64,000 nt of DNA from Lonsdalea iberica (GTDB lineage Bacteria > Pseudomonadota > Gammaproteobacteria > Enterobacterales > Enterobacteriaceae). Position 1 is the stretch's first letter, and each line of letters starts with the position of its first letter. Location of the stretch: assembly GCF_002111585.1 (NCBI RefSeq), contig NZ_LUTP01000010.1, forward strand, positions 1 to 64,000. Direction: 5' to 3'. Below are positions 1 through 21,726 of the stretch, in pieces. Under the pieces are notes generated by a model. The model did no database searches. It worked only from the letters and a program-made list of their open reading frames with translations, and was not told the origin of the DNA. A program made the translations under genes and the position numbers.

Positions 1-3000
1 CTGGGCGTGACGGGCGAGCTGTATGTCGGCGGCGCCGGGGTTGCGCGGGGCTATCTGAATCAGCCTGGGCTGACGGAAGCGCGATTCCCGCTCGACCCGT
101 TCAGCGGTGAAGTGGGGGCGCGAATGTATCGCACCGGCGATCTGGGCCGCTGGCGGGAAGACGGCTCGGTGACGTATCTCGGCCGCAATGATTTTCAGGT
201 GAAGATCCGCGGGTTCCGCATCGAGCTTGGGGAGATCGAGTCTGCGCTCCAGGCCTGTGAGGGCGTAAAACAAGCGGTGGTCACGGCGACAGGCACGGAG
301 ACGCAGGATAAACGGCTGATCGCTTACTATGTTGCGGATGAGCGGGGACAGGCTCCGACGACGGAAGCGCTCAAGGCTCAGCTCGGTAAACGCTTACCGG
401 CATTTATGGTCCCGGCGGCCTACGTGGCGTTGGACGCCGTGCCGCTGACGGCGAACGGTAAGGTGGATCGCCCATTGCTGCCGTCCCCGGATCTTGAGGC
501 GTTCGAGCATCAGATTTATGAGGCGCCGCGCGGCGATACGGAAACGACGCTGGCGTCGATCTGGCGCTCGATATTGGGCGTGGAGCGAGTCGGGCGCCAC
601 GACAGCTTCTTTGCGCTGGGCGGTCACTCGCTGCTGGCGGTGCAGCTGATTTCCCGCGTGCGTAGCGAACTCCAGCGGGAGCTGTCGGTCGCGACATTGT
701 TTGACTGTCCGGTGCTGCATGAACTGGCGGCCACGTTGGACATCGCGCCGACCGACGGGCATCTGCCCGACATCGTGCCGTTGGCGGAGGGCGTTCATCC
801 TCCGCTGTCTTTGGCTCAGCAACGACTGTGGTTTCTGTCGCGCATGGATGACACCGCGCGGGCGGCATACCTCATTGCATTTACGATCCGGATCGAGGGC
901 GAGCTTAACGTCACGGCGCTAGCGCAGGCGCTCGATCGTATCGTGGATCGTCACGCCGCGCTGCGCACTTGTATTGCTGAACGTGACGGCGCGCCGGTGC
1001 AGGTTATCGCTTCTGACGGCAGTGGATTCCCGCTTCGACGTACAACCTCGGACGCGCCGATAGCGACGCCTGATACGGCATCTGAGTCCGCCTCGGACGC
1101 CTTGGCGCACGGCGAGCTCATCGCGGTCGGCGCGCAGGAACACCACCTGCGTTTGTCGTTTCATCATTTGGTCGCCGACGGTTGGTCGGTCGGCATTTTT
1201 CTTCAGGAACTGCAAAGCCTGTACATCGCGTTCAGTCAGGGCCGCGGCGATCCGTTACCACCGCTGGCGATCCAATTCGGTGACTACGCGGCCTGGCAGC
1301 AGCAACACATGCAGGGAGAGGTGCTGCGCGCCCAGCAGGCGTATTGGGAAAAACAGCTGAGCGGGATCCCGGATTGCCTGACGCTGCCCAGCGACCGACC
1401 GCGTCAGCCGATGCAGGATTATCGCGGCGCCAGCCTGGACATTGAGCTGGATCCGTCGTTGACGCAGGATCTGAAGTCGCTGAGTCAGCGTCATGGCGCG
1501 ACGCTGTTCATGATACTGCTGGCGGGCTGGTCGGCGCTGATGAGCCGTTTGTCCGGTCAGGAGGATGTCGTGATCGGCAGCCCGGTCGCTGGCCGCGGCC
1601 GTCAGGAGCTTGAGCCGCTGATCGGCATGTTTGTCAATACGCTGGCGCTGCGCGTCAATTTGTCGGAACAGCCGGATACCATCGCGCTGCTTGCGCAGGT
1701 GAAGGCGATGACGCTGGCGGCGCAGGAACATCCGGATCTTCCCTTCGAGCAGGTGGTGGAGATGCTGGCGCCTGCTCGTAGTCTGTCTCACAGCCCGGTA
1801 TTTCAGGTCATGCTGGCGTTGCAGAATACGCAGGAGGTGGCGTTTACGCTTCCTGGACTGAAAGCCTCCCTGATTGCTGATCCCGTGGAGACGGCCCAAT
1901 TCGATCTGAGTCTGGATCTCCGTGAGGCCGACGGTCGGATCACCGGACGGCTCTACTACGCCACCTCACTGTTTGACGCCGCGACGGTCCGGCGCTATTT
2001 GGACTACTGGCATGCAATGTTGCGGGGGATGACGGCGGATCCGCATCAGCCGGTGCAGACGCTGCCGCTGTTACCCGACGACGAACGCCGCCAGCTATTG
2101 TTCGGCTTCAACGCCACGCGTGCCGACTATCCGGCCGAAAATGCCCTGCATACGCTGTTCGAAGAGCAGGCGGAGCGACAGCCGGACGCGGCGGCGGTGG
2201 AGTGCGACGGAGAACGCCTGAGCTACGGTGAGCTGAACCGGCGCGCTAACCAACTGGCCCACTGGCTGATGGCACAGGGCGTCCGGCCGGATGGCCGAGT
2301 GGCGATAGTGCTGGAGCGCAGCTGCGATCTGATCGTCGCGATGCTGGCGACGCTGAAGGCTGGCGGAGCCTATGTGCCGATTGATCCGGCGACGCCCGCT
2401 GAACGTCTGGCCTATCTGCTGGAAGACTGTGGGCCGCAGGCCATCATCACAGAACGTGCGCTGCGTAGTCGACTGGGGGAACCGTCGCGCCATCCTCATA
2501 CGCTGGTCATTGACGGCGGCGCCCGTCCGTGGACGCGCTACCCGCAGGACAACATTCCGCTTGCGGCGGCAGGGCTGACGTCGTTTCATCTGGCGTACCT
2601 CATTTACACCTCGGGTTCGACGGGTCGCCCGAAAGGCGTCATGGTCGAGCATCGCAATATCATCAATTTGGTGCATTGGCACTGCGAGGCCTTCGCCCTG
2701 CGCTCACGGGACTGCGTTTCCAGCGTGGCGGGTCTGGGCTTCGACGCGGCCGTCTGGGAGATCTGGCCCGCGCTATCGGTGGGCGCGCGGTTACTGCTGC
2801 CCTCGCCCGCGATCGCCCGCGATCCGGATCAACTGCTGGCGTGGTGGTGCGCGCAGCCGCTTGACGTGAGTTTTCTGCCGACGCCCATCGCTGAACTGGC
2901 GTTTGTCCGCGAGGCCGCACCGGCCACGCTGCGCACGCTGCTGGTCGGCGGCGATCGGCTGAATCGCCGACCGTTTGCCGGGGCGCGCTTCACCCTGATG

Positions 3001-6000
3001 AACAACTACGGCCCGACCGAAAACACCGTGGTGGCGACTTCCGGAGACATCAGCGCCGATGAAGCGCTGCTGCACATCGGCCGTCCCATCGCCAACACCC
3101 AAACCTATATTCTGGATGCGCGAATGCAGCCTGTTCCGGTAGGGGTGTGCGGAGAACTGTATATCGGCGGCGCGCAGGTGGCGCGCGGGTATCTCAACCG
3201 TCAGGATCTCACTACCGAGCGCTTTATTCCCGACCCGTTCTCCTCTGAGCCGCATGCGCGACTGTACCGTACCGGCGATTGGGGGCGCTGGCGCGCCAAC
3301 GGCACGATCGAGTTTCTGGGACGCTGCGACTTCCAGGTGAAGATCCGCGGCTTTCGCATCGAGCTCGGCGAAATCGAAGATGCCTTGTTGCACTGCGAGG
3401 GGATCCAGCAGGCCGTGGTGGTTGCGCAGGGGGGCGCCGCTCAGGAAAAACGTCTGATCGCCTACTATCTGGCGGAGAAAGGTACGAATGCACCTTCTAT
3501 TGATGCGCTGCGAGAACAGCTACTGGCGCGATTGCCTGAATACATGGTGCCGATGGCCTGGGTGCCGCTGGAAAGCCTGCCTCTGACGGCCAATGGCAAG
3601 GTTGACCGGCGTGCGCTACCTGAGCCGGATGACTCCGCATTTATAAGACAGCGCTATGAAGCGCCGCAGGGTCGGGTGGAGCCGACGTTAGCCGCCATCT
3701 GGCAAACGTTGCTGCGCGTGGAGAAGGTGGGGCGCCGGGATAACTTCTTCCTGTTGGGCGGGCACTCGCTGCTGGCGGTGCAGTTGATCTCGCGTATTCG
3801 CAGCGAAATGCAGCGGGAGCTGGACCTGAAAACGCTGTTCATGCACCCCACATTGTGTGAGATGGCGCAAGCGTTGGGCGAGAAGGCGGTACCGCCTTTA
3901 CCGGCGATTTCTCCCCTGGCGGCGGCTGAGCCGCCGCTGTCGCTGGCGCAGCAACGCCTCTGGCTATTGGTGCAAATGGATCCGGCGGCAAGCGCGGCCT
4001 ATATGATCACCGGCGGGATCCGGCTCCAGGGACATCTGAATCTCGCCGCGTTGCAACAGGCTCTGGATCGTATCGTCATGCGCCACGCGGCACTGCGCAC
4101 GCACATCGAGCGCCGGGACGGCGTTGACGTGCAGGCGATTGCTCCCGCGGAGAGCGGTTTCCCCCTGTACCGGCTGGATATGAGCGGCAGCCAAGATCGC
4201 CCGGAACCGTTCACGCCGTCCATGTCCCTCACTGCCGGTCCGCTGGCGCAGGGGCAACTGCTCCGTATTTCCCCGCAGGAACACTGGCTGAGGTTGGCGC
4301 TGCACCACATTATCGCTGACGGCTGGTCGGTCGGCATTCTGATGCGCGAGCTAGGTACCCTCTATAGCGCATTGAGTCAGGGACAGCCCGACCCGCTGCC
4401 GCCGCTGCCTATCCAATACGGCGACTATGCCGCTTGGCAGCGACAACATTTGCAGGGCGAGCGAATGCAGGAGCAGCAACGCTACTGGGTCGAACAGCTG
4501 CGCGGCGCGCCTGACACTCTGACGTTACCGACGGACCGACCCCGTCCGCCGTTGCAGCGCTTTGCCGGGGCGTATAAAACCCTGACGCTGGACGCCGACC
4601 TGACGCAGGCGTTGAAGACGTTAGGTCAGCAACACGGCTGTACGCTGTATATGACGCTGTTAGCCGGTTGGTCTGCGTTGATGAGCCGCCTTTCCGGGCA
4701 GGATGACATCGTGATCGGGTCACCTATCGCCGGGCGCGATCGACAGGAAATCGAACCGCTGATCGGGATGTTCGTCAACACGCTCGCGCTGCGGGTTGCC
4801 GTGACGCCAGAGATGGACACTGCGGCGCTGCTGGCGCAGGTCAGGCGTACCACACTGGCGGCGCAGAGCCACGCCGATATTCCGTTCGAACAGGTGGTTG
4901 AAGCCGTCGCGCCGGTGCGCACGCTGTCCCACAGTCCCATCTTCCAGGTGATGATGGCGCTGCACAATCTACCTGAAATGGCGATTGAGTTACCTGAGCT
5001 TCATGTGTCGCCGTTGCCTAACGAGACGGCGACCTGCCAGTTCGATTTGAATCTGGAATTACGTGAGACGAACGGGCGGCTGGAAGGCACGCTGTATTAC
5101 GCGACCGCGCTGTTTGATGAGGATACCGCCCAGCGTTATCTGGACTACTGGCAGCGTTTGTTGCGAGGGATGGTCGCCTCCGCCGCGCAGCCGGTAGCCA
5201 CGTTGCCGCTGGTCTCCGCCGCTGAGCGGCAGCGGGTGCTCACGGCGTTCAACGCCACGGAGTCCGCCTGTCCGGCAGACCGTTGTCTGCATGAACTGTT
5301 TGAGATACAGGCGCATCGGCAGCCGACAGCAACGGCGCTGGTCAGCGGCGAACGGCGGCTGAGTTACGGCGAGCTGAACGAGCGGGCCAACCAACTGGCG
5401 CACTGGCTGATGGCTGAGGGCGTGCGTCCGGACGATCGCGTGGCGATCTGCGTCACACGAGGTCCGGACATGGTCGTGGCGCTGATGGGGATCCTGAAAG
5501 CCGGCGGCGCTTATGTGCCGCTTGATCCCCTCTATCCTACCGAGCGTTTGGCTCACATGATCGCCGACTGCACGCCGCTGGCGGTACTGTGTGACGACGT
5601 CGGTCGCTCTTCGCTGGCATCTTGTTCCGCGTTGCCGCCCATCCTCGACCTGAGTGCGGATGAGCCGCTGTGGGCCAAGTCAGAGCGCAGCAATCCGGAT
5701 CCGCAATGTATCGGACTGACCCCGCGTCATCTGGCTTACACCATCTATACCTCCGGCTCGACCGGTCGCCCCAAAGGCGTGGCGATGCCGCACGCGCCGC
5801 TGGTCAATTTGGTGCATTGGCAGAATCAGCGCCCCGTCGGCGTCACGTTGCAGTTTGCTTCTTTTGGTTTCGATGTGGCGAGCCAAGAGATCCTCAGCGC
5901 GTTGACCGGCGGGGGGCGGTTGATCATTGTCCCGGATGATGTGCGGCTCGATATGCCGCGGCTGGCGGACTTACTCGAGCAGCAGCACGTCGAGCGGGCC

Positions 6001-7098
6001 TTTATTCCGCCGTCAGTTTTGCCTGCGCTGGCGCAGATGTATCGCGCTTCGGAACGCGTGCCGCCGTCGATGGAGATTATCGCCAGCGGCGAGGCGCTGC
6101 GCCTCGGTCCTGATGTGCGGGCGTTGTTCCAGCACTCGGAGAATGTCCGGCTTCACAACCAGTACGGCCCGGCGGAAACGCATGTGGCGAGTGAATTCGT
6201 CTGTCCGGCGACATTTTCGAACGGGGTGTCCCAACCGCCTATCGGGCGTCCTATCGCCAACAGCCGACTCTATCTCCTCGATCAAAAAGGCGAACCCGTG
6301 CCAGTCGGCGTGGCGGGGGAGATCTATATCGGCGGCGTCAGCGTGGCGAGAGGTTACCTGAATCAGCCGGCGCTGACCGCCAAGCGGTTTATCCGGGATC
6401 CTTTCTCCTCTGAGGCGGACGCGCGAATGTACAAAACCGGCGACCGGGGGCGTTGGCGCAAGGACGGCATCCTCGACTATCTGGGACGCGACGACGACCA
6501 GGTCAAGATCCGGGGATTCCGCATCGAGCCGGGCGAGGTGGAAGCCTGTCTGAGCGGATGTCCGGACGTTGTGGCGGCGGTGGTGGTTCCGCGTGAGTGC
6601 GGCGGAGAAACACGGCTGGTCGCTTACTACCAGGGGAGCGCGAAAATCGAGGCGATGCGCGCCCATCTCGTGGCGCAACTGCCGGCCTATATGGTGCCCG
6701 CGGCCTGGGTGGCATTGACCGAGTTCCCTCTGTCGCCCAATGGAAAAGTGAACCGCCGCGCGTTGCCGGAACCGGGGGATGATGCGTTCGCGCATGCAGC
6801 ATTCGAAGCGCCGCAAGATGAAACGGAACAGGCGGTAGCGGCAATCTGGCTGTCATTGCTGGGCGTCGAGCGTATCGGCCGTCACGACAACTTTTTCGAA
6901 CTGGGCGGGCACTCGCTGCTGGCAGTGCAGCTGGTGTCTCGACTACGGCTTGAGCTGGACGTCGACGTGCCGTTGGCGGAAATTTTTGCTCATCCGAGTC
7001 TGAGCGCGCTCAGCGAGCGGATCCTGGACCTGAGCATCGAAGAGTTTGATATCGCTGAGCTGCTGGATATGGCGGCATCAATGGAAGGAGAAGAATAA
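1..7098 (+). CDS. Non-ribosomal peptide synthetase, 3 modules visible (5' end outside window)
   Basis: Assembles a peptide by thiotemplate chemistry in the cytoplasm. The frame is open from base 1, so the start lies upstream. Order seen (residue 1 = codon at nt 7): end of an A domain (YRTGD, NGKVDR near 150), T (LGGHS, Ser ~208), C (HHLVADG ~386), A (YTSGSTG ~867), T (Ser ~1254), C (HHIIADG ~1433), A (~1914), T (Ser ~2303). By alignment to GrsA, pocket residues of the second A domain read DAWFLGNVV(K), the classic Leu code. Those of the third read DVQFISQVA(K), close to Pro-type codes but not exact. The first A lacks its pocket. No epimerase domain is present. The protein ends in an acidic helix-like tail (FDIAELLDMAASMEGEE), suited to docking with the next protein. 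The stop overlaps the next start (TAATG at 7096-7100), so the genes are translationally coupled. Confidence 0.95.
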   Translation: MGVTGELYVGGAGVARGYLNQPGLTEARFPLDPFSGEVGARMYRTGDLGRWREDGSVTYLGRNDFQVKIRGFRIELGEIESALQACEGVKQAVVTATGTETQDKRLIAYYVADERGQAPTTEALKAQLGKRLPAFMVPAAYVALDAVPLTANGKVDRPLLPSPDLEAFEHQIYEAPRGDTETTLASIWRSILGVERVGRHDSFFALGGHSLLAVQLISRVRSELQRELSVATLFDCPVLHELAATLDIAPTDGHLPDIVPLAEGVHPPLSLAQQRLWFLSRMDDTARAAYLIAFTIRIEGELNVTALAQALDRIVDRHAALRTCIAERDGAPVQVIASDGSGFPLRRTTSDAPIATPDTASESASDALAHGELIAVGAQEHHLRLSFHHLVADGWSVGIFLQELQSLYIAFSQGRGDPLPPLAIQFGDYAAWQQQHMQGEVLRAQQAYWEKQLSGIPDCLTLPSDRPRQPMQDYRGASLDIELDPSLTQDLKSLSQRHGATLFMILLAGWSALMSRLSGQEDVVIGSPVAGRGRQELEPLIGMFVNTLALRVNLSEQPDTIALLAQVKAMTLAAQEHPDLPFEQVVEMLAPARSLSHSPVFQVMLALQNTQEVAFTLPGLKASLIADPVETAQFDLSLDLREADGRITGRLYYATSLFDAATVRRYLDYWHAMLRGMTADPHQPVQTLPLLPDDERRQLLFGFNATRADYPAENALHTLFEEQAERQPDAAAVECDGERLSYGELNRRANQLAHWLMAQGVRPDGRVAIVLERSCDLIVAMLATLKAGGAYVPIDPATPAERLAYLLEDCGPQAIITERALRSRLGEPSRHPHTLVIDGGARPWTRYPQDNIPLAAAGLTSFHLAYLIYTSGSTGRPKGVMVEHRNIINLVHWHCEAFALRSRDCVSSVAGLGFDAAVWEIWPALSVGARLLLPSPAIARDPDQLLAWWCAQPLDVSFLPTPIAELAFVREAAPATLRTLLVGGDRLNRRPFAGARFTLMNNYGPTENTVVATSGDISADEALLHIGRPIANTQTYILDARMQPVPVGVCGELYIGGAQVARGYLNRQDLTTERFIPDPFSSEPHARLYRTGDWGRWRANGTIEFLGRCDFQVKIRGFRIELGEIEDALLHCEGIQQAVVVAQGGAAQEKRLIAYYLAEKGTNAPSIDALREQLLARLPEYMVPMAWVPLESLPLTANGKVDRRALPEPDDSAFIRQRYEAPQGRVEPTLAAIWQTLLRVEKVGRRDNFFLLGGHSLLAVQLISRIRSEMQRELDLKTLFMHPTLCEMAQALGEKAVPPLPAISPLAAAEPPLSLAQQRLWLLVQMDPAASAAYMITGGIRLQGHLNLAALQQALDRIVMRHAALRTHIERRDGVDVQAIAPAESGFPLYRLDMSGSQDRPEPFTPSMSLTAGPLAQGQLLRISPQEHWLRLALHHIIADGWSVGILMRELGTLYSALSQGQPDPLPPLPIQYGDYAAWQRQHLQGERMQEQQRYWVEQLRGAPDTLTLPTDRPRPPLQRFAGAYKTLTLDADLTQALKTLGQQHGCTLYMTLLAGWSALMSRLSGQDDIVIGSPIAGRDRQEIEPLIGMFVNTLALRVAVTPEMDTAALLAQVRRTTLAAQSHADIPFEQVVEAVAPVRTLSHSPIFQVMMALHNLPEMAIELPELHVSPLPNETATCQFDLNLELRETNGRLEGTLYYATALFDEDTAQRYLDYWQRLLRGMVASAAQPVATLPLVSAAERQRVLTAFNATESACPADRCLHELFEIQAHRQPTATALVSGERRLSYGELNERANQLAHWLMAEGVRPDDRVAICVTRGPDMVVALMGILKAGGAYVPLDPLYPTERLAHMIADCTPLAVLCDDVGRSSLASCSALPPILDLSADEPLWAKSERSNPDPQCIGLTPRHLAYTIYTSGSTGRPKGVAMPHAPLVNLVHWQNQRPVGVTLQFASFGFDVASQEILSALTGGGRLIIVPDDVRLDMPRLADLLEQQHVERAFIPPSVLPALAQMYRASERVPPSMEIIASGEALRLGPDVRALFQHSENVRLHNQYGPAETHVASEFVCPATFSNGVSQPPIGRPIANSRLYLLDQKGEPVPVGVAGEIYIGGVSVARGYLNQPALTAKRFIRDPFSSEADARMYKTGDRGRWRKDGILDYLGRDDDQVKIRGFRIEPGEVEACLSGCPDVVAAVVVPRECGGETRLVAYYQGSAKIEAMRAHLVAQLPAYMVPAAWVALTEFPLSPNGKVNRRALPEPGDDAFAHAAFEAPQDETEQAVAAIWLSLLGVERIGRHDNFFELGGHSLLAVQLVSRLRLELDVDVPLAEIFAHPSLSALSERILDLSIEEFDIAELLDMAASMEGEE

Positions 7099-10000
7099 TG
7101 CAGAACACGGAAGAAACCTCATCCTCTGTCCAGCCCCTCACGCGGGAGCAAAAGGCCAAACTGCTGGCGCTGGCAAAAGCCAAGGGGCTTAAGCCGAAGG
7201 CCGCGGGCCGTCGACAACCGATCCCTCTTGCGACGCGCGTCGAAGGCGGGATGCCGCTGGCGCCCGTCCAGCGCGGGCTGTGGTTTATGTCGCAAATGGA
7301 GTCGCAAGCGCCGGAGCGTTATCTCCTGAGCATCGCCTATCGGCTTAGTGGCCAGGTGAATATGGCGGCGCTACAGGCGGCGTTGGACCGCATTGTCGCC
7401 CGTCATGAGATTCTACGAACGAGGGTGATCAACGTGGCGGGTACGCCGCGTCAGCTCATCGCTTCCGCCGATAGCGGTTTCGCGCTGGAAATCCGGACGT
7501 TATCGGATGCCTCGGAACCACTACCGGATTTCACGCCGCGGCCCGATCCGGAAGCCGGCCTGCTGCTGGGCGGACAGCTGGTATGTCTGGGCGACGGGGA
7601 GTGCCTGCTGCGCGTTGCGCTGCATCACTTGATTGCCGACGGGTGGTCGCTCGGGATTTTTCTGCATGAGTTGAACGCCCTCTATACGGCGTTTAGCCAG
7701 GGACAGCCCGATCCTTTGCCGCCGCTGCCGATTCAATATGCCGACTATGCGGCGTGGCAGCATGCGCAGCTGAGTGACGAGGCGCTGGAAACGCAGCGCG
7801 ACTACTGGCGGATGCAACTCCGGGGGGCGCCGACGTGTCTGGCGCTGCCGACCGATCGCCCGCGTCCGCGGGTACAGGATTACGACGGCGCCTGCGCGTC
7901 AGTGACGCTGGACGCGAAGTTGCTGAACGAGCTGAAAGCGCTGGCGCGGCGCCACGGGTGTACGCTGTTTATGACACTGTTGTCAGGGTGGGCGGCGTTG
8001 ATGAGGCGTCTGTCCGCTCAGGACGACATCGTCATCGGCGTCCCGACGGCTGGGCGTCACCGCCGCGAGGTCGAATCGTTGATCGGCATGTTCGTCAACA
8101 CGCAGGCGCTGAGAATCGATCTCTCGGATCCGTTGGATACGCCCGCGCTGCTGATGCAGGTGCGGGACACGGCGCTGGCGGCCCAGCGTTACGCCGACAT
8201 CCCTTTGGAGCAGGTGGTGGAAGCGGTCGCGCCGACCCGCAGCCTGTCTCACAGCCCGCTGTTTCAGGTGATGCTGTCGTTGCAAAATACGCCGCAGCAG
8301 CCGTTTACCCTGCCCGGCGTTGTGGCTTCGCCGTTGGAGGGCGAAGCCACGATGGCGCAGGTCGATTTGAATCTGACGTTGACGGAAACCGACGGGGGAT
8401 GCGAAGGGACGCTGTGCTATGCGAAGGCCCTGTTCGACGCGGACACGGTGCGGCGTTATCTGAGCTACTGGCTGCGGATCCTACGTGGTATGGCGGAACA
8501 GCCTGACTGCGCGGTGCAGTCGCTGCCGCTACTGTCTGCTGATGAGCGGCGACAGGTTCTGGACGAGGTTAATGCGATGCGGGTGGACTACCCCCGCGAG
8601 GCCTGCGTCCACGAATTGGTCGAATATCAGGCCGCCGCGCAACCTGAGGCGCTGGCGGTGGTCTCCGACGAACGGACGCTGAGCTACGGCGAACTTAACC
8701 GCATGGCTAACCAATTGGCGCACTGGCTCGTGGCGCACGGAGCCGGCCCGGAGACCCGGGTGGCCGTGGCGCTGCCGCGCGGCCCTGAGTTAGTTGCCTC
8801 GTTGCTGGCGGTGCTTAAGGCGGGGGCCGCTTATGTACCTTTGGACCCGGCCCAGCCGTCGGCGCGACTTAACGCGTTGCTGCATGACTGCGCGCCTATC
8901 GTGGTGATCGCTTCGCAAACAACGCGCGGGGCGCTGGGCGAGCTGCCTGACTCGGCCACGTTGCTGGAGTGTGATGAGGCAATCGGTCCGTGGACGCGAT
9001 GCGCCGAGGCCAATCTTGCCCCGGTTTCGCGTGGGCTGACGGCGAAGCATCCGGCTTATCTCATTTATACCTCCGGCTCGACCGGCCGTCCCAAAGGCGT
9101 GACGGTGCCGCACCGGGCCGTCGTGAATTTCTTGCACAGTCAGCGACATCAGCATCAGGCGGCGTCGCATACCCGACTGCTGGCGGTCACGACCGTCTCC
9201 TTTGATATCCACGTTCTGGAAATTTACCTGCCGTTAATCGTGGGTGGTCAACTGCATCTGGCGAGCGATGCACTGCGCCGGGACGGCGAACGGCTGGGGC
9301 GTTACCTGAACGCGGAGGCGATCTCGCTGTTTCAAGCCACGCCGGCGACGTGGAAACTGTTGCTGGCCGCCGGTTGGGCAGGCGCGCCCGGCTTGACAGG
9401 ATTGATAGGCGGTGAGGCTTTTTCGCCGACGCTGGCGGCGGCGTTGATCCCGCGCGTTGATGCGCTGTGGAATATGTTCGGTCCAACGGAGACCACGGTT
9501 TGGTCGACGACGTGGCGCATCGGAGCTGAAGAGGTGGCGGTCCCTATCGGTCATCCCATCGCCAATACGCGGGTCTACCTGCTGGACGCGGAAGGACAGC
9601 CGGTGCCGACCGGCGTGCCGGGCGAGATTTACATCGGCGGCGATGGCGTCAGTCTGGGGTATTTTAACCGTCCTGACCTGACGGCGGAGCGCTTCCTGCC
9701 CGACCCCTTTTGCCGCGATACCGATGCCCGTATGTATCAAACCGGCGATCTGGGGCGCAGACGGCCCGACGGCGTGCTGGAGTATCTGGGTCGCGACGAC
9801 TTCCAGGTCAAGATCCGCGGTTTCCGTATCGAACTGGGCGAGATCGAGACGGCGCTGTTGGCCTGCGTGGGCGTGCGCGAGGCGGTGGTGACGGCGCTGA
9901 GCGGTGAACATGAGGAAGCCCGACTGGTCGCTTATTACGTGGCGGAAGCAGACACGGCACCCACCCGCGAAGGGTTGCGGACGGCGTTGAGCGAGCGTCT

Positions 10001-10808
10001 TCCTGACTACATGGTGCCTGCCGCTTGGGTCGCGCTGGAGAATGTGCCGTTAACGCCGAACGGCAAGGTAGACCGCAAGGCACTCCCTGCGCCGGATGAA
10101 TCGGCCTATGCACAGCAGCCCTACGAAGCGCCGCAAGGGGAAACGGAGACGGCGCTGGCGGCGATCTGGCAGTCTCTGCTCGGCGTGCAAAAGGTGAGTC
10201 GTCACGACAACTTCTTCGCGCTGGGCGGGCACTCTCTGCTGGCGATGCAGCTCGTTTCCCGGGTGCAGGAAGCGCTGCATCGGGCGCTACCGCTGGCGAC
10301 GTTATTCGCCTTTCCGTCGATCAGCGGGTTGGCCGCGTCGCTGGACGCCGCGTCGCAGGAGACGCTGAGCGAAATCCCGCCTTTGAAAGAAGGCGTAGAC
10401 GCTCCGCTATCTCTGGCGCAACGGCGAATCTGGGTGTTAAGCCAGATGGACGCGGCATCTGGGGACGCCTACGTGCTGGCGGGCGGCGTGAAGCTTGAAG
10501 GGCCGCTGAATACGGCGGCGCTGCGCCAGGCGCTGGATCGCGTTTATGCGCGGCATGACGTGTTACGTACGCATATCGAGGTTCGCGACGGCACGCCGGT
10601 TCAGGTGATTGAGGCGGAGAACCGCGGTTTTCCGCTCAGCGTGGTCGGGCTAGACGACCCGCGCGATCCACCGAGCTTCCAGCCGACGTTCGATCTGACG
10701 GCCGGGCCGCTGGCGCTGGCTCAACTGGTCACGGTATCGGAAAAAGAGCACTGGCTGAGACTGCCAAGGCACACATCATCGCCGACGGTTGGTCTATCGG
10801 CGTGCTGA
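7098..10808 (+). CDS. Non-ribosomal peptide synthetase, C-A-T-partial C (5' part of a frameshifted gene)
   Basis: Second NRPS protein, coupled to the first by TAATG. The N-terminus has a basic helical stretch (LTREQKAKLLALAKAKGL) typical of an acceptor docking segment. Then C (HHLIADG ~176), A (YTSGSTG ~657), T (LGGHS, Ser ~1046) and the first part of another C domain. A-domain pocket residues align as DILQLGMVW(K), nearly the known Gly code DILQLGLIWK, so Gly is likely. After about nt 10762 the reading leaves the C-domain pattern and stops at 10808, while the rest of the C domain continues in the frame of the next entry. Adding one base gives a continuous protein of about 3731 residues (7098-18292). 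I read these as one gene with a single-base loss, not as two proteins. Confidence 0.88.
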   Translation: MQNTEETSSSVQPLTREQKAKLLALAKAKGLKPKAAGRRQPIPLATRVEGGMPLAPVQRGLWFMSQMESQAPERYLLSIAYRLSGQVNMAALQAALDRIVARHEILRTRVINVAGTPRQLIASADSGFALEIRTLSDASEPLPDFTPRPDPEAGLLLGGQLVCLGDGECLLRVALHHLIADGWSLGIFLHELNALYTAFSQGQPDPLPPLPIQYADYAAWQHAQLSDEALETQRDYWRMQLRGAPTCLALPTDRPRPRVQDYDGACASVTLDAKLLNELKALARRHGCTLFMTLLSGWAALMRRLSAQDDIVIGVPTAGRHRREVESLIGMFVNTQALRIDLSDPLDTPALLMQVRDTALAAQRYADIPLEQVVEAVAPTRSLSHSPLFQVMLSLQNTPQQPFTLPGVVASPLEGEATMAQVDLNLTLTETDGGCEGTLCYAKALFDADTVRRYLSYWLRILRGMAEQPDCAVQSLPLLSADERRQVLDEVNAMRVDYPREACVHELVEYQAAAQPEALAVVSDERTLSYGELNRMANQLAHWLVAHGAGPETRVAVALPRGPELVASLLAVLKAGAAYVPLDPAQPSARLNALLHDCAPIVVIASQTTRGALGELPDSATLLECDEAIGPWTRCAEANLAPVSRGLTAKHPAYLIYTSGSTGRPKGVTVPHRAVVNFLHSQRHQHQAASHTRLLAVTTVSFDIHVLEIYLPLIVGGQLHLASDALRRDGERLGRYLNAEAISLFQATPATWKLLLAAGWAGAPGLTGLIGGEAFSPTLAAALIPRVDALWNMFGPTETTVWSTTWRIGAEEVAVPIGHPIANTRVYLLDAEGQPVPTGVPGEIYIGGDGVSLGYFNRPDLTAERFLPDPFCRDTDARMYQTGDLGRRRPDGVLEYLGRDDFQVKIRGFRIELGEIETALLACVGVREAVVTALSGEHEEARLVAYYVAEADTAPTREGLRTALSERLPDYMVPAAWVALENVPLTPNGKVDRKALPAPDESAYAQQPYEAPQGETETALAAIWQSLLGVQKVSRHDNFFALGGHSLLAMQLVSRVQEALHRALPLATLFAFPSISGLAASLDAASQETLSEIPPLKEGVDAPLSLAQRRIWVLSQMDAASGDAYVLAGGVKLEGPLNTAALRQALDRVYARHDVLRTHIEVRDGTPVQVIEAENRGFPLSVVGLDDPRDPPSFQPTFDLTAGPLALAQLVTVSEKEHWLRLPRHTSSPTVGLSAC

Positions 10809-13800
10809 TGAAGGAGATTGGAACGCTGTATGCCGCGTTTAATCAGCACCAGAACGATCCACTGCCCGCGCTACCGATCCAGTACGGCGATTATGCCGCC
10901 TGGCAGCAACACTATCTGTGCGGCGACCGGATGCAGGCGCAGCAGCATTACTGGATGGAGCAGTTGCGCGGCGCGCCCGAATGTCTGACGCTGCCGACCG
11001 ATCGTTCCAGGCCGCAGACGCAGGATTATCGTGGCGGCCGCGTGGCGGTGTCGCTGGACGCTGGGCTCACACAGGCGCTGAAGGCGCTGAGCCAGCGCGG
11101 GAATGCCACGCTGTATATGACGCTGATGGCGGGCTGGGCGGCATTGATGAGCCGGTTGTCCGGTCAGGAGGATGTGGTGATCGGTTCACCTAACGCGGGC
11201 CGCCATCGCCGCGAGGTAGAGCCATTGATCGGTATGTTCGTCAACACGCAGGCGCTACGCATTGACCTGTCGTCTCAACCGAATGCCATGACGTTGCTTG
11301 AACAGGTGAAAGCGACCGCGCAGGCAGCGCAGACGCATGCCGACATGCCGTTCGAGCAGGTCGTGGAGACGCTGGCGCCGTCCCGTAGCTTGTCTCACAG
11401 CCCGATCTTTCAGGTCATGATGACGCTGCAAAATACGCCGGAAGGGGCGCTGGCGCTGCCGGGGGTGGGGGTGACGCCGCTGCAAGACGCGGCGACGGTG
11501 TCGCCGTTCGACCTCAGTCTGGTCCTGAGCGAGCAGGGCGATGAGCTTGACGGAGGGCTGTATTTTGCCCGCGCACTGTTCGATGAAAGCACGGTGCGCC
11601 GCTATTTGGGCTATTGGCAGCGGCTGCTCGCCGGCATGGTTTCTTCGCCGTCAACGCCGGTGACGGCGTTGCCGCTATTGTCGGAAGAGGAGCGCCGTCA
11701 GGTACTGTGCGACTTCAATGCCACGCACGCCGACTATCCAACCGGGGACAGTCTGCATTCGCTGTTCGAGACGCAGGCGGCCCGTCAACCGGATGCGCAG
11801 GCGGTGCTGTGCGGCGGCCTGAGCCTGCGCTATGGCGAATTGAATGCTCAGGCTAATCAGTTGGCGCACTGGCTGAAGGCGCAGGGCGTGAGACCGGGCG
11901 ATCGGGTGGCTATCGCGCTGGATCGCGGTTGCGATCTGATTGTCGCGTTGCTGGCGGCGTTGAAGTCAGGGGCCGCCTACGTGCCGCTGGACCCAGCGCT
12001 GCCGACGAAACGACTGGCCTATATTCTGGAAGACAGCGCGCCGCAGGCGGTGGTGACCCGCCGCGACGTACGCGAGCGTTTGGGGGCGCTGCCGTCAGCG
12101 GTGACCCTGGTCTTGCTGGAGGGGGGGAACCGGCCTTGGGCGCAGTTGTCCCGGGACAACCTTCCAACAGAAACGCTGGGGCTGACGCCTCGTCACCCGG
12201 CCTATCTTATCTATACCTCCGGCTCGACCGGCCAGCCGAAAGGCGTTGTGGTCGAACATCGGCATGTCGTCAATCTGGTGCACTGGCACCAAGAGGCGTT
12301 CGATTTGCGGGCGCAAGACATGTCGTCCAGCGTGGCGGGATTGGGATTCGATGCCGCGGCTTGGGAGATCTGGCCGCCGCTGTCGGTCGGGGCCAGGCTG
12401 GTGATGCCGACGCCGGAGATATCACGGGATCCGCAGCAGCTGCTGGCATGGTGGGCGGCGCAGCCGCTGGACGTCAGCTTTCTGCCGACGCCCGTCGCTG
12501 AGCTGGCGTTCGCCCGGGGTATATCGCCGTCAACGCTGCGGGTGCTGCTGGTCGGCGGCGACAGGCTTAAACGCCGCCCGCCCGCCGGGGCGCGCTTTAC
12601 CCTGTTCAACAACTACGGCCCGACGGAAAACGCCGTCGTCGCCACTTCCGGCGTCATCCACGCCGATGAGACGGCGATGCACATCGGTCGTCCCATCGCC
12701 AATACCCGTGTGTATATTCTGGACAGTCAGAAGCAACCGGTGCCGCCGGGCGTATGCGGCGAACTGTTTATCGGCGGCGCGCAGGTTGCTCGCGGGTACG
12801 TCAATCGTCCGGATTTGACCGCCGAACGTTTCCTGCCCGACCCGTTTGTGCAGGACGCAGAAGCGCGGATGTATCGAACCGGTGATTTGGGGCGTTGGCG
12901 GAGCGACGGGACGATCGACTATCTTGGACGTAATGACTTCCAATTGAAGATCCGCGGTTTTCGCATCGAACTGGGCGAGATCGAGTCCGCATTGCTGGAG
13001 TGCGAGGGGATCCGCGGGGCGGTGGTTGAAGCCTTGTCCCTGACAGATCAGACGCAGGACAAACGGCTGGTCGCCTACTACACCAGCGACGATCTTCAGG
13101 GGATCAGCGCTGACGGTCTGCGTGAACAACTGAGCGCCCGACTGCCCGCGTATATGCTGCCCGTCGCCTGGATGGCGTTGGCTGAGATGCCGCTCACCGC
13201 GAATGGCAAGGTCGATCGTAAAGCCTTGCCGCTCCCGGATCAGGCCGCGTTTGCGCATCAGCCCTACGCCGCGCCGCGGGGCGACATGGAAACGACGCTG
13301 GCGGCGATATGGCAGACGCTTCTAGGCGTGGAAAACGTCAGCCGTTACGACGACTTTTTCGCACTGGGCGGGCACTCTCTGCTGGCCGTGCAGCTGATTT
13401 CGCGACTACGCGAAGAGCTGGGCCTCGAGCTCTCTCTGGCGACGCTGTTTGCGCGTCCTGCGCTGTATGATGTCGCCGCCGTGCTTGGCGCGGCGGCGCA
13501 GAGCGACTTGGCGCCGATTCGGCGGCGTGGAAGCGAGAAACCGCGGCCGTTGTCTCTGGCTCAACGGCGCATCTGGTTCCTGACGCAGCGGGATGCCAAC
13601 GCCAGCGCGGCCTACGTCATTACTGGCGGAATCAAACTCTCAGGAGTGCTTGATGTGTCGGCGCTACAGCGCGCGCTCGATCGTATCGTTGCCCGCCACG
13701 CCGCGTTACGCACTCACATCGCGTGCCGGGACGGCGAGCCGGTGCAGGTGGTGGAGTTGGAGGATCGGGGGTTCCCGCTGTATGTAACGACAGTGAACGA

Positions 13801-16800
13801 TCAGCATGACGAGCGGGCGTCATTTATGCCGGAGTTCGACCTGACGGCCGGTCCTTTAGCGCTGGGGCAGCTGACTCAGATCTCGCCGCAGGAGCATTGG
13901 CTACGTCTGGCGTTGCACCATATCATCGCCGACGGCTGGTCGCTTGGCGTGATTATGAACGAACTGCGCACGCTGTATTCGGCCTTTATACAGGATCAAC
14001 CCGACCCGCTGCCGGTTATGACGATCCAGTTCGGCGACTACGCCGAGTGGCAACGTGAGCATACGCAGGGTGAAGTCCTTCAGGCTCAGCAAGCGTATTG
14101 GGTGACCCAGTTGCAGGGGATCCCGGCGTGTCTGGCGTTGCCGAGCGATCGCCCCCGACCCGCGGTGCAGGATTACCGTGGCGCGAGCCTGACGGTAGAA
14201 CTGGATCGCGAGTTGACGCAGTCGCTTAAAGCCTTGAGTCAGCGCTGCGGGGGGACGCTGTTTATGACGCTATTAGCGGGCTGGTCGGCGCTGCTGAGCC
14301 GACTGTCGGGGCAAGAGGACGTGGTGGTTGGCACCCCCGTGGCCGGTCGTAACCGGCGCGAGCTGGAACCGCTGATCGGCATGTTCGTGAATACCCAGGC
14401 TCTGCGCGTTGATATGTCCGCCGATCCCGATGCCGTCGCACTGATCGAGCAGATTCGGGAAACCCAACTGGCTGCACTGGCGCATGCGGATATTCCCTTC
14501 GAACAGGTCGTGGAAGCATTGACTCCGGCCCGCAGTTTGTCGCATGGACCGGTCTTTCAGGCCATGTTGGCGTGGCAAAATCTCCCCAATGAATCCGCCG
14601 AGTGGCCTGGACTGATGCTCTCGCCGCTGCACCATGAAACGCAGACCGCCCAGTGCGATCTCATTCTGGAGTTGCGCGAGGAAGACGAGCGGTTGGTGGG
14701 GAGCCTGAATTATGCGGTCTCTCTGTTCGACGACGTCACTGTACGGCGCTATTTACGCTATTGGGTACGGCTGCTGCGAGGCATGGTGTCTGAACCGTAT
14801 CGACCGATGCAGGCTGTGCCGCTGCTCTCCTCTTCCGAACGGCAGCGGGTGCTGAGCGATTTCAACGAGACCCGGACGGAATACCCGTCGCAGAAGAGCC
14901 TGCCTGAATTGTTCGAGGAGAGGGCGTTGCGGCACCCTGATGCACAGGCACTCAGCTGCGGTGAGCAGCAGGTAAGTTATGGCGAGTTAAACGCGAGAGC
15001 GAATCAACTGGCTGCGCGGCTGGCGGCGCTTGGCGTGCAGCCCGGCAGCCGGGTGGCGATCGCACTGGCGCGCAGCGGGGAGCTCATCGTCGCGATATTG
15101 GCGACGCTCAAGGCAGGCGGCGCTTATGTGCCGCTGGATAGCGGATATCCGCAGGCGCACCTGCAATACGTTTTGGCGGATAGTGCGTCCGAGGTGCTGA
15201 TTACGGATGCGATAACGCGCCATGCATTCGACAGTGTCTCGCATGCGTGTGCGGTGGTCGACGTCGATTGCCCGCCACCGAATGCGGCTGATGGCACTGA
15301 GTATGACCAGAACGCGAACGTGGCGTGCGGCGGCGGCCAACTTGCTTACATCATGTACACCTCCGGTTCGACCGGTAAGCCGAAAGGCGTGATGGTGGAG
15401 CATCGCAACATTGCGAAACTGGCCATCAACAACGGCTATGCAGAGTTTCGGCAGAGCGACCGGGTGGCTTGCCTTGCCAATCCGGCGTTCGACGCCAGTA
15501 CGATGGAGATTTGGGGGCCCTTGCTTAACGGCGGCTGTATCGTGCTGTTCAGTCAGGATACCGTGCTTGATCCTGTGCGCTTCGCGGCCGAGATCCAGCG
15601 TCAGCGGGTCAGTATCGTCTTTATGACCATCGCCCTGTTCAATCAATATGCCGAGACGCTGCAACCGGTGCTTCCCCACCTGCGTTACCTGATGGTCGGC
15701 GGCGAATCGCTCGATTTGACGTTTGTGCGCCGGGTGCTGCGCGTCGGGCCGCCGCAGAACTTCCTGCATATGTATGGGCCGACGGAAACAACGACGTATG
15801 CCACCGCTTTCCGCATGAATAATGTGGCTCCCGAAACGGGAAGCATGCCGATTGGCCGACCGATCGCCAACACCACGATCTACATCCTCGATCGTTATCG
15901 CCAACCGGTGCCTCTCGGCGTGAGCGGCGAGCTGTATATCGGCGGGGCCGGTGTCGCGCGCGGCTACCTGAATCTGGACGAGCAGACGACCGAGCGTTTC
16001 CTGCCCGATCCCTTCTCGAACATACCAGGTGCGCGGATGTACAAGACCGGCGATCTGGGGCGCTGGCTGTCCGATGGCACTATCGAGTTTATGGGACGCA
16101 ATGATTTTCAGGTGAAGATTCGCGGTTTTCGCATTGAACCCGAAGAGGTCGAGGCGGTGTTGCAGGCGCAGGACGAAGTGCGGCAGGCCGTGGTGATGGT
16201 GCGGACGACGGCGACTCAGGAAAAACAGCTGACGGCCTATTTCACCGCATCCGAGCCAGATGTCGACATTGCATCGCTACAGGCGCGTTTAGGCGCGCGT
16301 CTGCCCGCCTACATGGTGCCCTCCGCCTATGTGCAGTTGGAGAATATGCCTCTGACGCCTAATGGCAAAGTAAACCGCGCGGCGCTGCCTGAGCCGGATG
16401 ACAGCGCGCGAGTGCGATGCGATTATGAGGCGCCCCAAGGGCGTATCGAACGCACGCTGGCGAAGATCTGGCAGCGTTTGTTGGGAGTGGAGGAAGTCAG
16501 CCGTTACGACGACTTTTTTGCGTTGGGCGGCCATTCGCTGCTGGCTCTGCGGCTTGTGAATGAAGCGCGGCAGCAAGGGGTGCAACTGACGCTGTCTTTG
16601 CTGTTTTCGGCGCCGCAATTGCAGGCGCTGGCGGCGGAGATCCAGACCCAAAGCCCGCAGGTTGGACGCGGTTCGGAGCAGGCCATCCTATTTCGCGCTA
16701 CGGGAGAGCAGCGTCCGCTGTTTATCGTGCCGGAAGCCAGCGGCGAATTGTTTTATGGACCATTGCTGACCCGTTGCATTAATGACGATATTCCAGTTTA

Positions 16801-18292
16801 CGGGCTGCCAGGACCGAATTGCAGCCAGCCGCCTTTCGCGACGCTGGAGGCCGCGGCATCACGCTATGTTCGGATCATCCGCGCGGCCCAGCCAGAGGGA
16901 CCATATCGGCTGATTGGTTGGTCATTTGGCGGGACGATGGTCTATGAAATCGCGGCGCAGCTGCTGGGACAAGATCAACAGGTCGAATTCATGGGCATGC
17001 TGGACACGCGGCTGCCGGACTCGCCGGAGGGGTTCACCGTCCCGATGGATGAGCTGTTGGCGATGACCGACGAGGAGGAGATGATGGCATTCCTGGTTCG
17101 CGGCGATTTAGAGGCTATGGCCAATGGCGCCGTGGAGCTACCACCGGACGCTATCGCGCGAGCGCGGCGAGGACGGCTGGAAGATCACTATGACATCGGG
17201 CGCGAAACGGGCATTTTCCCGGAGGAGTGGCCACCATCATATTACCGTGGCTGGCTGCGCCACCGCTTGGCCTTGCTGCGAGTGCAGTATCGAGTGCCGA
17301 CGTTACCGCTGAGGTTGGATCTCTTTATCGCTCAAGATGAGCCGTCTGAGGGAGGGCGATATCTTGGTTGGGAACGCGTGCTGCCGAGGTCGTCCATTCG
17401 TCGTATTCCGGTGCCCGGCGATCATCGGCGCTTAGTCTCGGAGCCTTACGTGCAGGAGGTGGGGCGGGCGATCAGCGCGGCGTTGCAGACTGGCTGCTCA
17501 GAAGTGGAAAGCACTGAGGACCCTGTGGTGGCGCTGCAGGCCGGGAGCGGGGCGGGACCGACTCTGCTCTGCATCCCCGGGGCGGGCGATAACGTGTTCG
17601 CATTCAAATCGCTGGTGCAGCGCTTACCCGACGAGTGGACGGTACTGGGGCTGCAACCGCGTGGGTTGTGGGGCAGTGAGGTGCCCCATACAAGCGTTGA
17701 GGCGGCCGCGGTGTGTTATCAGCAGGCGCTGAGCCGCTACTCTCTGACGGAAAATGTGCATCTGTTGGGGCACTCGTTCGGCGGCTGGGTCGCATTGGAG
17801 CTAGCCGCCAAGCTGGAAACGACAGGGATCGTGCCGGCATCGCTGCTGCTGGTCGACTCCGATGCGCCCGCGCCCGCAACGCGAGAACACACGGACATGC
17901 AGGCGCTGATGTCGTTGGCTGAACTTTTCGAAATGAGAGGATGTTCTCTGGGACTCACCGAGGAGTACCTTGCCAGCCTCACGCTGCCTCGTCGGTTGGA
18001 GGTCATGCTGGAGCGTCTGACCGCTCAGGGGGTGCTGCCTAAACAGACGAAGTTGTCGGTTCTGGCGGGGATATATCGCGTTTTCTCAACGAACATCCGT
18101 ACTGCTTACCGGCCGACGGCCTTGCCTTCGACGCCGCCGGTTCTGTTGATGGCGAAAGAAGCGTCCCCTGAGCTGCTCCCCGATTGGCAGTCGGTGGTGC
18201 CGACGCTGCGTGGTGTTTATGGCGAAGGGAATCATATTGAACTACTGGCGTCACCCTGCGTCCAGGCCTTAACCGAGTTATTGCGCCGATAG
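10802..18292 (+). CDS. Non-ribosomal peptide synthetase, partial C-A-T-C-A-T-TE-TE (3' part of the frameshifted gene)
   Basis: Continuation of the preceding NRPS in another frame. The GTG at 10802 falls inside a condensation domain and is not a credible natural start. Residues counted from 10802: end of C, A (YTSGSTG ~471), T (Ser ~859), C (HHIIADG ~1039), A (~1519), T (Ser ~1912), first thioesterase (GWSFGG, Ser ~2041), second thioesterase (GHSFGG, Ser ~2325). Pocket residues of the first A are DAWFLGNVV(K), Leu. Those of the second are about DAMFMGMTY(K), matching no code I know, though hydrophobic overall. Tandem TE domains are known from cyclic lipopeptide synthetases such as arthrofactin, where they release and cyclise the chain. 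A strong terminator follows the stop. Confidence 0.88.
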   Translation: MLMKEIGTLYAAFNQHQNDPLPALPIQYGDYAAWQQHYLCGDRMQAQQHYWMEQLRGAPECLTLPTDRSRPQTQDYRGGRVAVSLDAGLTQALKALSQRGNATLYMTLMAGWAALMSRLSGQEDVVIGSPNAGRHRREVEPLIGMFVNTQALRIDLSSQPNAMTLLEQVKATAQAAQTHADMPFEQVVETLAPSRSLSHSPIFQVMMTLQNTPEGALALPGVGVTPLQDAATVSPFDLSLVLSEQGDELDGGLYFARALFDESTVRRYLGYWQRLLAGMVSSPSTPVTALPLLSEEERRQVLCDFNATHADYPTGDSLHSLFETQAARQPDAQAVLCGGLSLRYGELNAQANQLAHWLKAQGVRPGDRVAIALDRGCDLIVALLAALKSGAAYVPLDPALPTKRLAYILEDSAPQAVVTRRDVRERLGALPSAVTLVLLEGGNRPWAQLSRDNLPTETLGLTPRHPAYLIYTSGSTGQPKGVVVEHRHVVNLVHWHQEAFDLRAQDMSSSVAGLGFDAAAWEIWPPLSVGARLVMPTPEISRDPQQLLAWWAAQPLDVSFLPTPVAELAFARGISPSTLRVLLVGGDRLKRRPPAGARFTLFNNYGPTENAVVATSGVIHADETAMHIGRPIANTRVYILDSQKQPVPPGVCGELFIGGAQVARGYVNRPDLTAERFLPDPFVQDAEARMYRTGDLGRWRSDGTIDYLGRNDFQLKIRGFRIELGEIESALLECEGIRGAVVEALSLTDQTQDKRLVAYYTSDDLQGISADGLREQLSARLPAYMLPVAWMALAEMPLTANGKVDRKALPLPDQAAFAHQPYAAPRGDMETTLAAIWQTLLGVENVSRYDDFFALGGHSLLAVQLISRLREELGLELSLATLFARPALYDVAAVLGAAAQSDLAPIRRRGSEKPRPLSLAQRRIWFLTQRDANASAAYVITGGIKLSGVLDVSALQRALDRIVARHAALRTHIACRDGEPVQVVELEDRGFPLYVTTVNDQHDERASFMPEFDLTAGPLALGQLTQISPQEHWLRLALHHIIADGWSLGVIMNELRTLYSAFIQDQPDPLPVMTIQFGDYAEWQREHTQGEVLQAQQAYWVTQLQGIPACLALPSDRPRPAVQDYRGASLTVELDRELTQSLKALSQRCGGTLFMTLLAGWSALLSRLSGQEDVVVGTPVAGRNRRELEPLIGMFVNTQALRVDMSADPDAVALIEQIRETQLAALAHADIPFEQVVEALTPARSLSHGPVFQAMLAWQNLPNESAEWPGLMLSPLHHETQTAQCDLILELREEDERLVGSLNYAVSLFDDVTVRRYLRYWVRLLRGMVSEPYRPMQAVPLLSSSERQRVLSDFNETRTEYPSQKSLPELFEERALRHPDAQALSCGEQQVSYGELNARANQLAARLAALGVQPGSRVAIALARSGELIVAILATLKAGGAYVPLDSGYPQAHLQYVLADSASEVLITDAITRHAFDSVSHACAVVDVDCPPPNAADGTEYDQNANVACGGGQLAYIMYTSGSTGKPKGVMVEHRNIAKLAINNGYAEFRQSDRVACLANPAFDASTMEIWGPLLNGGCIVLFSQDTVLDPVRFAAEIQRQRVSIVFMTIALFNQYAETLQPVLPHLRYLMVGGESLDLTFVRRVLRVGPPQNFLHMYGPTETTTYATAFRMNNVAPETGSMPIGRPIANTTIYILDRYRQPVPLGVSGELYIGGAGVARGYLNLDEQTTERFLPDPFSNIPGARMYKTGDLGRWLSDGTIEFMGRNDFQVKIRGFRIEPEEVEAVLQAQDEVRQAVVMVRTTATQEKQLTAYFTASEPDVDIASLQARLGARLPAYMVPSAYVQLENMPLTPNGKVNRAALPEPDDSARVRCDYEAPQGRIERTLAKIWQRLLGVEEVSRYDDFFALGGHSLLALRLVNEARQQGVQLTLSLLFSAPQLQALAAEIQTQSPQVGRGSEQAILFRATGEQRPLFIVPEASGELFYGPLLTRCINDDIPVYGLPGPNCSQPPFATLEAAASRYVRIIRAAQPEGPYRLIGWSFGGTMVYEIAAQLLGQDQQVEFMGMLDTRLPDSPEGFTVPMDELLAMTDEEEMMAFLVRGDLEAMANGAVELPPDAIARARRGRLEDHYDIGRETGIFPEEWPPSYYRGWLRHRLALLRVQYRVPTLPLRLDLFIAQDEPSEGGRYLGWERVLPRSSIRRIPVPGDHRRLVSEPYVQEVGRAISAALQTGCSEVESTEDPVVALQAGSGAGPTLLCIPGAGDNVFAFKSLVQRLPDEWTVLGLQPRGLWGSEVPHTSVEAAAVCYQQALSRYSLTENVHLLGHSFGGWVALELAAKLETTGIVPASLLLVDSDAPAPATREHTDMQALMSLAELFEMRGCSLGLTEEYLASLTLPRRLEVMLERLTAQGVLPKQTKLSVLAGIYRVFSTNIRTAYRPTALPSTPPVLLMAKEASPELLPDWQSVVPTLRGVYGEGNHIELLASPCVQALTELLRR

Positions 18293-18842: not shown

Positions 18843-18872
18843 TTGATACTCCTACTACTCCTTTGTGATTGA
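18813..18872 (+). repeat. 26-bp tandem direct repeat (2.3 copies)
   Basis: Two identical 26-bp copies at 18813-18838 and 18839-18864, each starting GTGATTGATACTCC, followed by the first 8 bases of a third (18865-18872). The first copy starts inside the last three bases of the ops element. The repeat ends 25 nt before the rfbB ATG and lengthens the spacing between ops and the first gene. Confidence 0.95.
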
Positions 18873-18897
18873 ACAACTAGGCGATGGATATAGCGTT

Positions 18898-19968: not shown

Positions 19969-20828
19969 AAGGCATTATTCTGGCAGGCGGGTCCGGTACG
20001 CGTCTGTATCCCCTGACGCGCGGCGTGTCGAAGCAGCTGCTACCGGTGTACAACAAGCCGATGATCTACTATCCGCTCTCCACGCTGATGCTGGCTGGCA
20101 TCCGGGACGTCCTGATCATCACAACGTCGGAAGATAACGAGGCCTTCCGTCGTTTGTTGGGCGACGGCTCTAATTTCGGCATCAATATCGATTATGCGGA
20201 ACAGCCTAGTCCGGACGGCCTGGCGCAGGCGTTTATCATCGGTGAATCCTTTATCGGGAATGAGCGCTGTGCTTTGGTGCTGGGCGACAATATCTTCTAT
20301 GGCCAGTCTTTCAGCCGCATGTTGGCGGACGCCGCCGCCAAAGAGCACGGTGCAACCGTGTTCGGCTACCAGGTGAAAGACCCAGAGCGTTTTGGCGTGG
20401 TTGAGTTCGATAACAATATGAAAGCCGTCTCCATCGAAGAGAAACCGACCAAGCCTAAATCCAACTATGCCATTACCGGGCTCTATTTCTACGACAACCG
20501 CGTGGTGGATTTCGCCAAGCAGGTGAAGCCTTCCCACCGCGGCGAGCTGGAGATCACTTCCCTAAATCAGATGTATTTGGAAGATAATTCGCTATGTGTC
20601 GAGTTATTTGGTCGTGGCTTTGCATGGCTGGACACGGGAACGCATGAAAGCCTGCACGATGCATCGTCCTTTGTGCAGACTATCGAAAATGTGCAGGGCC
20701 TGCAGGTCGCCTGTTTGGAAGAGATTGCCTGGCGCAACGGTTGGCTTTCCGACCAACAATTAGCGACTTTGGCCGATCCGATGATGAAAAATCAGTACGG
20801 TCGCTACATCATGAATTTACTTAACTGA
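19965..20828 (+). CDS. rfbA: Glucose-1-phosphate thymidylyltransferase RfbA (RmlA)
   Basis: First enzyme of dTDP-rhamnose synthesis: glucose-1-phosphate plus dTTP to dTDP-glucose. 287 residues, about the family length. N-terminal [11 protein letters not shown] nucleotide-binding signature, LGDNIFYG metal-binding aspartate region, and [20 protein letters not shown] of the sugar nucleotidyltransferase core. The start overlaps the rfbB stop by 4 nt, so translation is coupled. Same operon as rfbB, rfbD and rfbC. Confidence 0.95.
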
Positions 20829-21722: not shown

Positions 21723-21726
21723 TCTT

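Follow-up and report, generated by a model that had tools for sequence, protein, structure and literature searches.

The window, i.e. the whole stretch of 64,000 nucleotides that was analysed, begins at base 1 of contig C10 in a Lonsdalea iberica genome of 3.78 Mb and 133 contigs. NRPS domains were recognised by Pfam in three reading frames, which occupy its first 18,292 nucleotides:

Positions 1 to 7098, forward strand: 3' part of NRPS 1 (2365 aa), A1 (C-terminal part only)-T1-C2-A2(Leu)-T2-C3-A3(Pro-like)-T3.
Positions 7098 to 10808, forward strand: first reading frame of NRPS 2 (1236 aa), C4-A4(Gly)-T4-N-terminal part of C5.
Positions 10802 to 18292, forward strand: second reading frame of NRPS 2 (2496 aa, listed from GTG), rest of C5-A5(Leu)-T5-C6-A6(Ile-like)-T6-TE1-TE2.
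Positions 10760 to 10810, forward strand: reading-frame break in the HHxxxDG region of C5, the second C domain of NRPS 2, which is in one frame in three of four relatives.

The TAA stop of NRPS 1 shares bases with the ATG of NRPS 2 (TAATG). Profiles built from the domains of the window gave the order A1(part)-T-C-A2-T-C-A3-T, followed by C-A4-T-C(split)-A5-T-C-A6-T-TE-TE; such profiles score the domains they were made from above strangers, and their bits were used only for the separation of classes. The region holds part of A1, the whole of A2 to A6, six T, five internal C and two TE domains, and corresponds to about 88% of the synthetase length in the relative G003. An earlier note on this DNA had counted six A domains, one of them partial, which was borne out by Pfam and by the profiles; it had also reported the absence of an epimerase domain, and with the profiles no extra C-like domain was found at any epimerase position. 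The second synthetase is in fact split between two frames near 10.77 kb, a feature that had gone unreported. The locus is a genuine, nearly complete two-protein lipopeptide NRPS, and adds one more case to an enzyme type that is well known. PF00668 matches were also present on contigs C9, C36 and C7 of the same genome.

If the break in C5 were real, no product would be made from this locus in this strain. NRPS 2 forms one frame of 3,729 to 3,731 aa in G001, G002 and G003, and a pseudogene would mean a line that is dead here while alive in relatives. The location of the break in a catalytic motif is compatible with such a loss, as is the second synthetase of G004, likewise interrupted in several places. 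Moreover, the longest one-base run within 15 bases of the break is of two bases (four at the break of a capD-like gene and three in the nadK overlap, see below), a setting in which the common homopolymer type of error is not apparent and a genuine mutation may be present. Against this stand three other genes of the window:

Positions 57176 to 58053: nadK, split between frames.
Positions 30354 to 32257: capD-like gene, split between frames.
Positions 55430 to 57090: recN-like gene, apparently split between frames according to Pfam only.

NAD kinase is essential and a cell without it is not expected to be viable. The one nadK match in this genome was a 177-aa frame, versus 305 to 337 aa in all four relatives, and the N- and C-terminal Pfam domains of the protein lay in different frames of the window. 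The capD-like gene was one 622-aa frame in G003, and the recN-like gene was apparently split, as judged by Pfam SMC_N matches below the curated cut-off only. Since a single-copy nadK and the capD-like gene are split within the same 64 kb, the assembly appears to contain single-base losses, of which the NRPS break is likely one. In addition, positions 4 to 18292 aligned to G003 at 94.1% identity with a single gap, located at the break. The break near 10.77 kb is thus probably a sequencing error rather than the mark of a dead gene, NRPS 2 would be intact in this strain, and a true pseudogene is unlikely. For frame breaks in draft genomes, neighbouring housekeeping genes deserve to be checked before a pathway is declared dead.

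The earlier note had suggested that a starter C domain may exist upstream, and a candidate was recovered on another contig. The N-terminal 848 aa of the synthetase in G003 matched this genome at C38:28939-30336 (75% identity), where the match stops at the last base of C38 (16939-18336 of L071), and at C10:1-102 (91% identity); the approximately 350 residues of A1 between these two matches were not found in this genome. In a PDB search, the best solved match of the putative starter domain was RzmA-Cs of the rhizomide synthetase (274 bits), followed by CDA Cs (165) and EntF (142), and a starter C domain acylating residue 1 would accordingly be present on C38. It was 75–78% identical to its counterparts in G003, G001 and G002, the A domains being 85–97% identical. 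PDB entry 7C1H is RzmA-Cs, in which residue 148 sets the acyl length: Arg goes with a C2 (acetyl) group, and shorter side chains bring longer acyl groups, up to C8 or C10, along the series R-M-L-V-A-G, in which Ile is absent (PMC7804268). The matched RzmA entry has Ala at position 148, as in a mutant described in PMC7804268. In our alignment this position was occupied by Ala in this strain and by Ile, Val and Val in G003, G001 and G002, respectively, from which a medium-chain acyl group is predicted; the cap is probably a medium-chain fatty acid.

Residue specificities were read from the A-domain codes, whose positions were located by motif anchors, GrsA numbering being assumed to apply:

Positions 2158 to 3195, forward strand: A2, code DAWFLGNVVK (Leu; given for Leu in PMC12283262).
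Positions 5299 to 6360, forward strand: A3, code DVQFISQVAK (Pro-like; azetidine carboxylate possible).
Positions 8622 to 9665, forward strand: A4, code DILQLGMVWK (Gly; nine of ten letters as in DILQLGMIWK).
Positions 11765 to 12799, forward strand: A5, code DAWFLGNVVK (Leu).
Positions 14912 to 15970, forward strand: A6, code DAMFMGMTYK (Ile-like; eight of ten letters as in DAMFLGCTYK).

Among 2051 A domains, DAWFLGNVVK, DAMFLGCTYK and DALWIGGTFK were reported as the commonest codes for Leu, Ile and Val, respectively, DILQLGMIWK as one of the Gly codes, and Val236 and Gln239 as frequent among Pro codes (PMC12283262). Judged by these published lists, A2, A4 and A5 can be assigned firmly to Leu, Gly and Leu; A3 reads as Pro-like and A6 as Ile-like. 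This matches the order X-Leu-(Pro-like)-Gly-Leu-X proposed in the earlier note, and the last residue would be Ile or Val. The code-bearing part of A1 was not found in this strain, and residue 1 was borrowed from the relatives: DFWNIGMVHK, given for Thr in PMC12283262, was found in all three in which it was available (G001, G003 and, twice, G002), which points to Thr. LgrA was rejected as a guide to A6, as its 612 bits were made up of roughly 300 bits from each of two A domains and carried no specificity information. The A6 region (window 14851-15450) was also the least conserved with respect to G003 (71–85% in 150-base tiles); A6 was nearer to G004 (89% protein identity) than to G003 (86%), as if exchanged by recombination, the code being unchanged.

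The stereochemistry of the peptide depends on the classes of its C domains. These were examined in a tree of 63 rows, repeats of the same domain included (58 different domains); L084, a Burkholderia NRPS in several frames, was left out of the list and tree, as were five C fragments no longer than 331 residues, including both pieces of the split C5. An LCL-like clade comprised 42 rows (99/99), and a separate clade of 15 of the 63 rows (100/100) gathered domains starting with QDIYP, a start taken here as the mark of dual C/E domains. The class names are working labels in a tree whose domains are all of unproved type, and the tree tool warned that long branches come together close to the QDIYP-start and starter domains. 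All internal C domains of the locus that were entered fell in the LCL-like clade, except an extra one of G002. The two classes also differed in the linker after the T domain (53–57 residues for QDIYP-start domains, 18–22 for LCL-like ones). Four internal C domains of the window are complete, and none of them was of the dual C/E type; the split C5 keeps an LCL-like start. Likewise, no dual C/E domain was found in G001 or G003, and one was found in G002. As neither dual C/E nor E domains were found in the window, an all-L peptide is expected.

In G002 (L059 1073-13873), the extra domain belongs to a seventh module, the order being starter C-A(Thr)-T-dual C/E-A(Thr)-T onward. Its two Thr A domains shared 89% identity with each other; A1 of G003, which has one such domain, was closer to the second (89%) than to the first (82%), which fits the loss or gain of a module by recombination. 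The six- and seven-module versions offer a small natural example of length change in an assembly line.

The locus ends with two thioesterase domains:

Positions 16679 to 17485, forward strand: TE1, GWSFGG serine; Asp and His conserved in five of five Lonsdalea genomes.
Positions 17486 to 18289, forward strand: TE2, GHSFGG serine; Asp and His conserved in five of five Lonsdalea genomes.

The roles of Asp and His are assumed here from the general TE triad. Both serines, described as intact in the earlier note, were present in all five Lonsdalea copies. A structure of the TE pair predicted from the single sequence had a mean pLDDT of 38.8 and was unusable.

The locus was found in all five Lonsdalea genomes, the identity of the TE pair being 100, 92, 90, 85 and 81%, with 92% and 90% for the two L. 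quercina records. Elsewhere among 197 relatives, near-whole single matches to the pair were restricted to a second locus in G002 and two matches in G016, which belongs to another genus, all at 31–32% identity. Shorter TE matches were many, reaching 55% over 51 residues, and the two partial ones lying close together in G032 are of a kind that may hide further TE pairs. Seven of 369 genomes of the class, including this one, matched the TE pair at E 1e-20, the six others only partially (28–39%). Among plasmids, 81 records matched and four of them covered at least 80% of the pair: Ensifer adhaerens (37.2%), Eleftheria terrae (35.2%), Burkholderia cenocepacia (33.7%) and Janthinobacterium lividum (32.8%). 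In the genomes and plasmids searched, no full-length TE pair outside Lonsdalea exceeded about 37% identity. The view that tandem thioesterases are uncommon in Enterobacterales is therefore a fair one, but they are not exclusive, as near-whole pairs occurred in the five Lonsdalea genomes and twice in G016.

Upstream of the locus, on C38, lie genes which we take to be recJ-, prfB- and lysS-like, together with an MFS gene. The NRPS is directly followed (window 18865-33969) by presumed rfbBADC-like genes, by glycosyltransferases and by an ABC exporter of O-antigen type; all these names except MFS were assigned from the translations. GC content was 62–64% in the NRPS and 36–44% between 20 and 32 kb of the window. 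The lysS flank recurs in G003, and the rfb flank in both G003 and G002; within 58 kb of G003 no counterpart was found for the MFS gene of C38 or for approximately 22.3 to 30.4 kb of the window. No gene in the 10 kb upstream of the G002 NRPS matched C38 above 70% identity, which indicates that the upstream neighbourhood is not conserved throughout. No dedicated exporter was recognised at the locus, and the window yielded no MbtH gene, one match being present elsewhere in each of the five genomes (here on C61). This contig (L073) carries an NRPS of 2874 aa with the MbtH gene beside it, and frames of 2876–2879 aa matched its TE region in the other Lonsdalea; its first C domain is presumably EntF-like and it is possibly a siderophore synthetase. 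G002 has a second tandem-TE NRPS locus, much longer and with at least six dual-C/E-like domains (L063 5723-19963 and L064; C1 1.36-1.40 Mb), and still more NRPS genes near 0.78-0.80 Mb.

With a probability of roughly 0.7, these data point to a two-protein Lonsdalea lipopeptide synthetase making N-acyl-Thr-Leu-Pro-Gly-Leu-Ile closed through Thr, with TE1 as the cyclising enzyme. In this model, the starter C domain on C38 would attach a fatty acyl group, probably of medium chain length, to Thr1, and five more modules, each with an LCL-type C domain, would extend the chain by Leu, a Pro or Pro-like residue, Gly, Leu, and finally Ile or Val. T6 would then hand the chain over to the tandem TE. Ring closure would most likely be the work of TE1, with the Thr hydroxyl attacking the C-terminal carbonyl, and TE2 would assist release or clear stalled chains. 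The residue identities, the acyl length, the ring closure and the division of labour between the two TEs are all predicted from sequence. For this model, the calculated [M+H]+ values of the cyclic product are 721.486 (C8), 749.517 (C10) and 765.512 (3-OH-C10), with m/z 721-793 spanning C8 to C12; linear forms would be heavier by 18.011 and seven-module products by 101.048, and azetidine forms lighter by 14.016. A bolder version, in which a genus-wide all-L cyclic lipohexapeptide carries azetidine-2-carboxylate at the third position and its length varies between six and seven modules by gain or loss of a Thr-dual C/E module, is rather improbable; A3 shares Ser and Gln, at positions 301 and 322, with one of the azetidine codes reported (DVQCLSEVTK and DMQLVSQQVK; PMC12283262).

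Release by hydrolysis would yield a linear lipopeptide instead, with TE2 acting mainly in proofreading. Tandem TEs are known from lysobactin, where TE1 cyclises and TE2 releases, from teixobactin, where both act jointly, and from Pseudomonas lipopeptides; in general, a TE tandem and a cyclic product are not directly linked (PMC8949500). This lends some weight to a linear product, but Thr1, as seen in relatives, would be a nucleophile of the usual kind. The full-length tandem TEs closest to this pair (33–37%) come from Ensifer, Eleftheria, Burkholderia and Janthinobacterium. Eleftheria is known for cyclic depsipeptides. With Thr at position 1, a lactone from Thr to the C-terminus is the simplest reading, and a linear product appears unlikely. 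Another objection concerns the cap, which could be an aryl acid added in a siderophore-like, EntF-type start. EntF did match the starter domain at 142 bits, the starter C domains grouped with the first C domain of the C61 NRPS, presumed EntF-like (100/100, on a flagged long branch and in a tree lacking an RzmA row), and further NRPSs lie on C9 and C61. RzmA-Cs was nevertheless the far better match, and Leu, Pro, Gly, Leu and Ile residues supply no metal ligands; an aryl cap is very unlikely.

It is also very unlikely that the product has already been described under another name. AntiSMASH NRPS clusters have been reported in L. populi and L. britannica, five clusters being similar to rhizomide, with L. 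populi clusters among them; rhizocticin, bicornutin and luminmide are named in the discussion of that paper, in which no description of the present cluster was found (PMC7914447). The NRPS terms sought in the available part of PMC6856664 gave no result. The first eight letters of the A3 and A6 codes had no match in the searched literature, and nothing there paired Lonsdalea with a depsipeptide; outside the genus, the closest named matches to the TE pair show 33–37% identity. The suggestion that the product may be undescribed held in so far as, among the matches listed, no paper on such a Lonsdalea product was found by title, a result that is only compatible with it. The fatty-acid-capped small ring peptide favoured here is probably not yet described. 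The presence of the synthetase in all five Lonsdalea genomes examined suggests that its product may be a trait shared across the genus. These bacteria are known as tree pathogens, and the compound may act as a surfactant or an antimicrobial, or have a role in the plant.

Among known systems, the rhizomide synthetase RzmA resembles the Lonsdalea line by its starter C domain, RzmA-Cs being the best solved match; it differs by Arg at position 148 and acetylated peptides (PMC7804268), whereas the Lonsdalea domains have Ala, Ile or Val and a longer acyl group is expected. This comparison concerns the starter C domain only. Pseudomonas CLP synthetases begin with a starter C domain. Those for arthrofactin, viscosin and massetolide share with the Lonsdalea line the lack of an E domain and a terminal tandem TE; they use dual C/E domains, which are reported in lipopeptide lines of Pseudomonas, Burkholderia and Xanthomonas (PMC8949500), whereas, in this comparison with published descriptions, none was found in the complete internal C domains of the window or in G001 and G003, and one was found in G002. 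The Eleftheria terrae and Ensifer adhaerens plasmid synthetases also have dual-C/E-like domains, in contrast to the six-module Lonsdalea lines, in which none was found, but they provide the nearest full-length TE-TE pairs (35% and 37%) and their internal LCL-like domains fall in the same clade.
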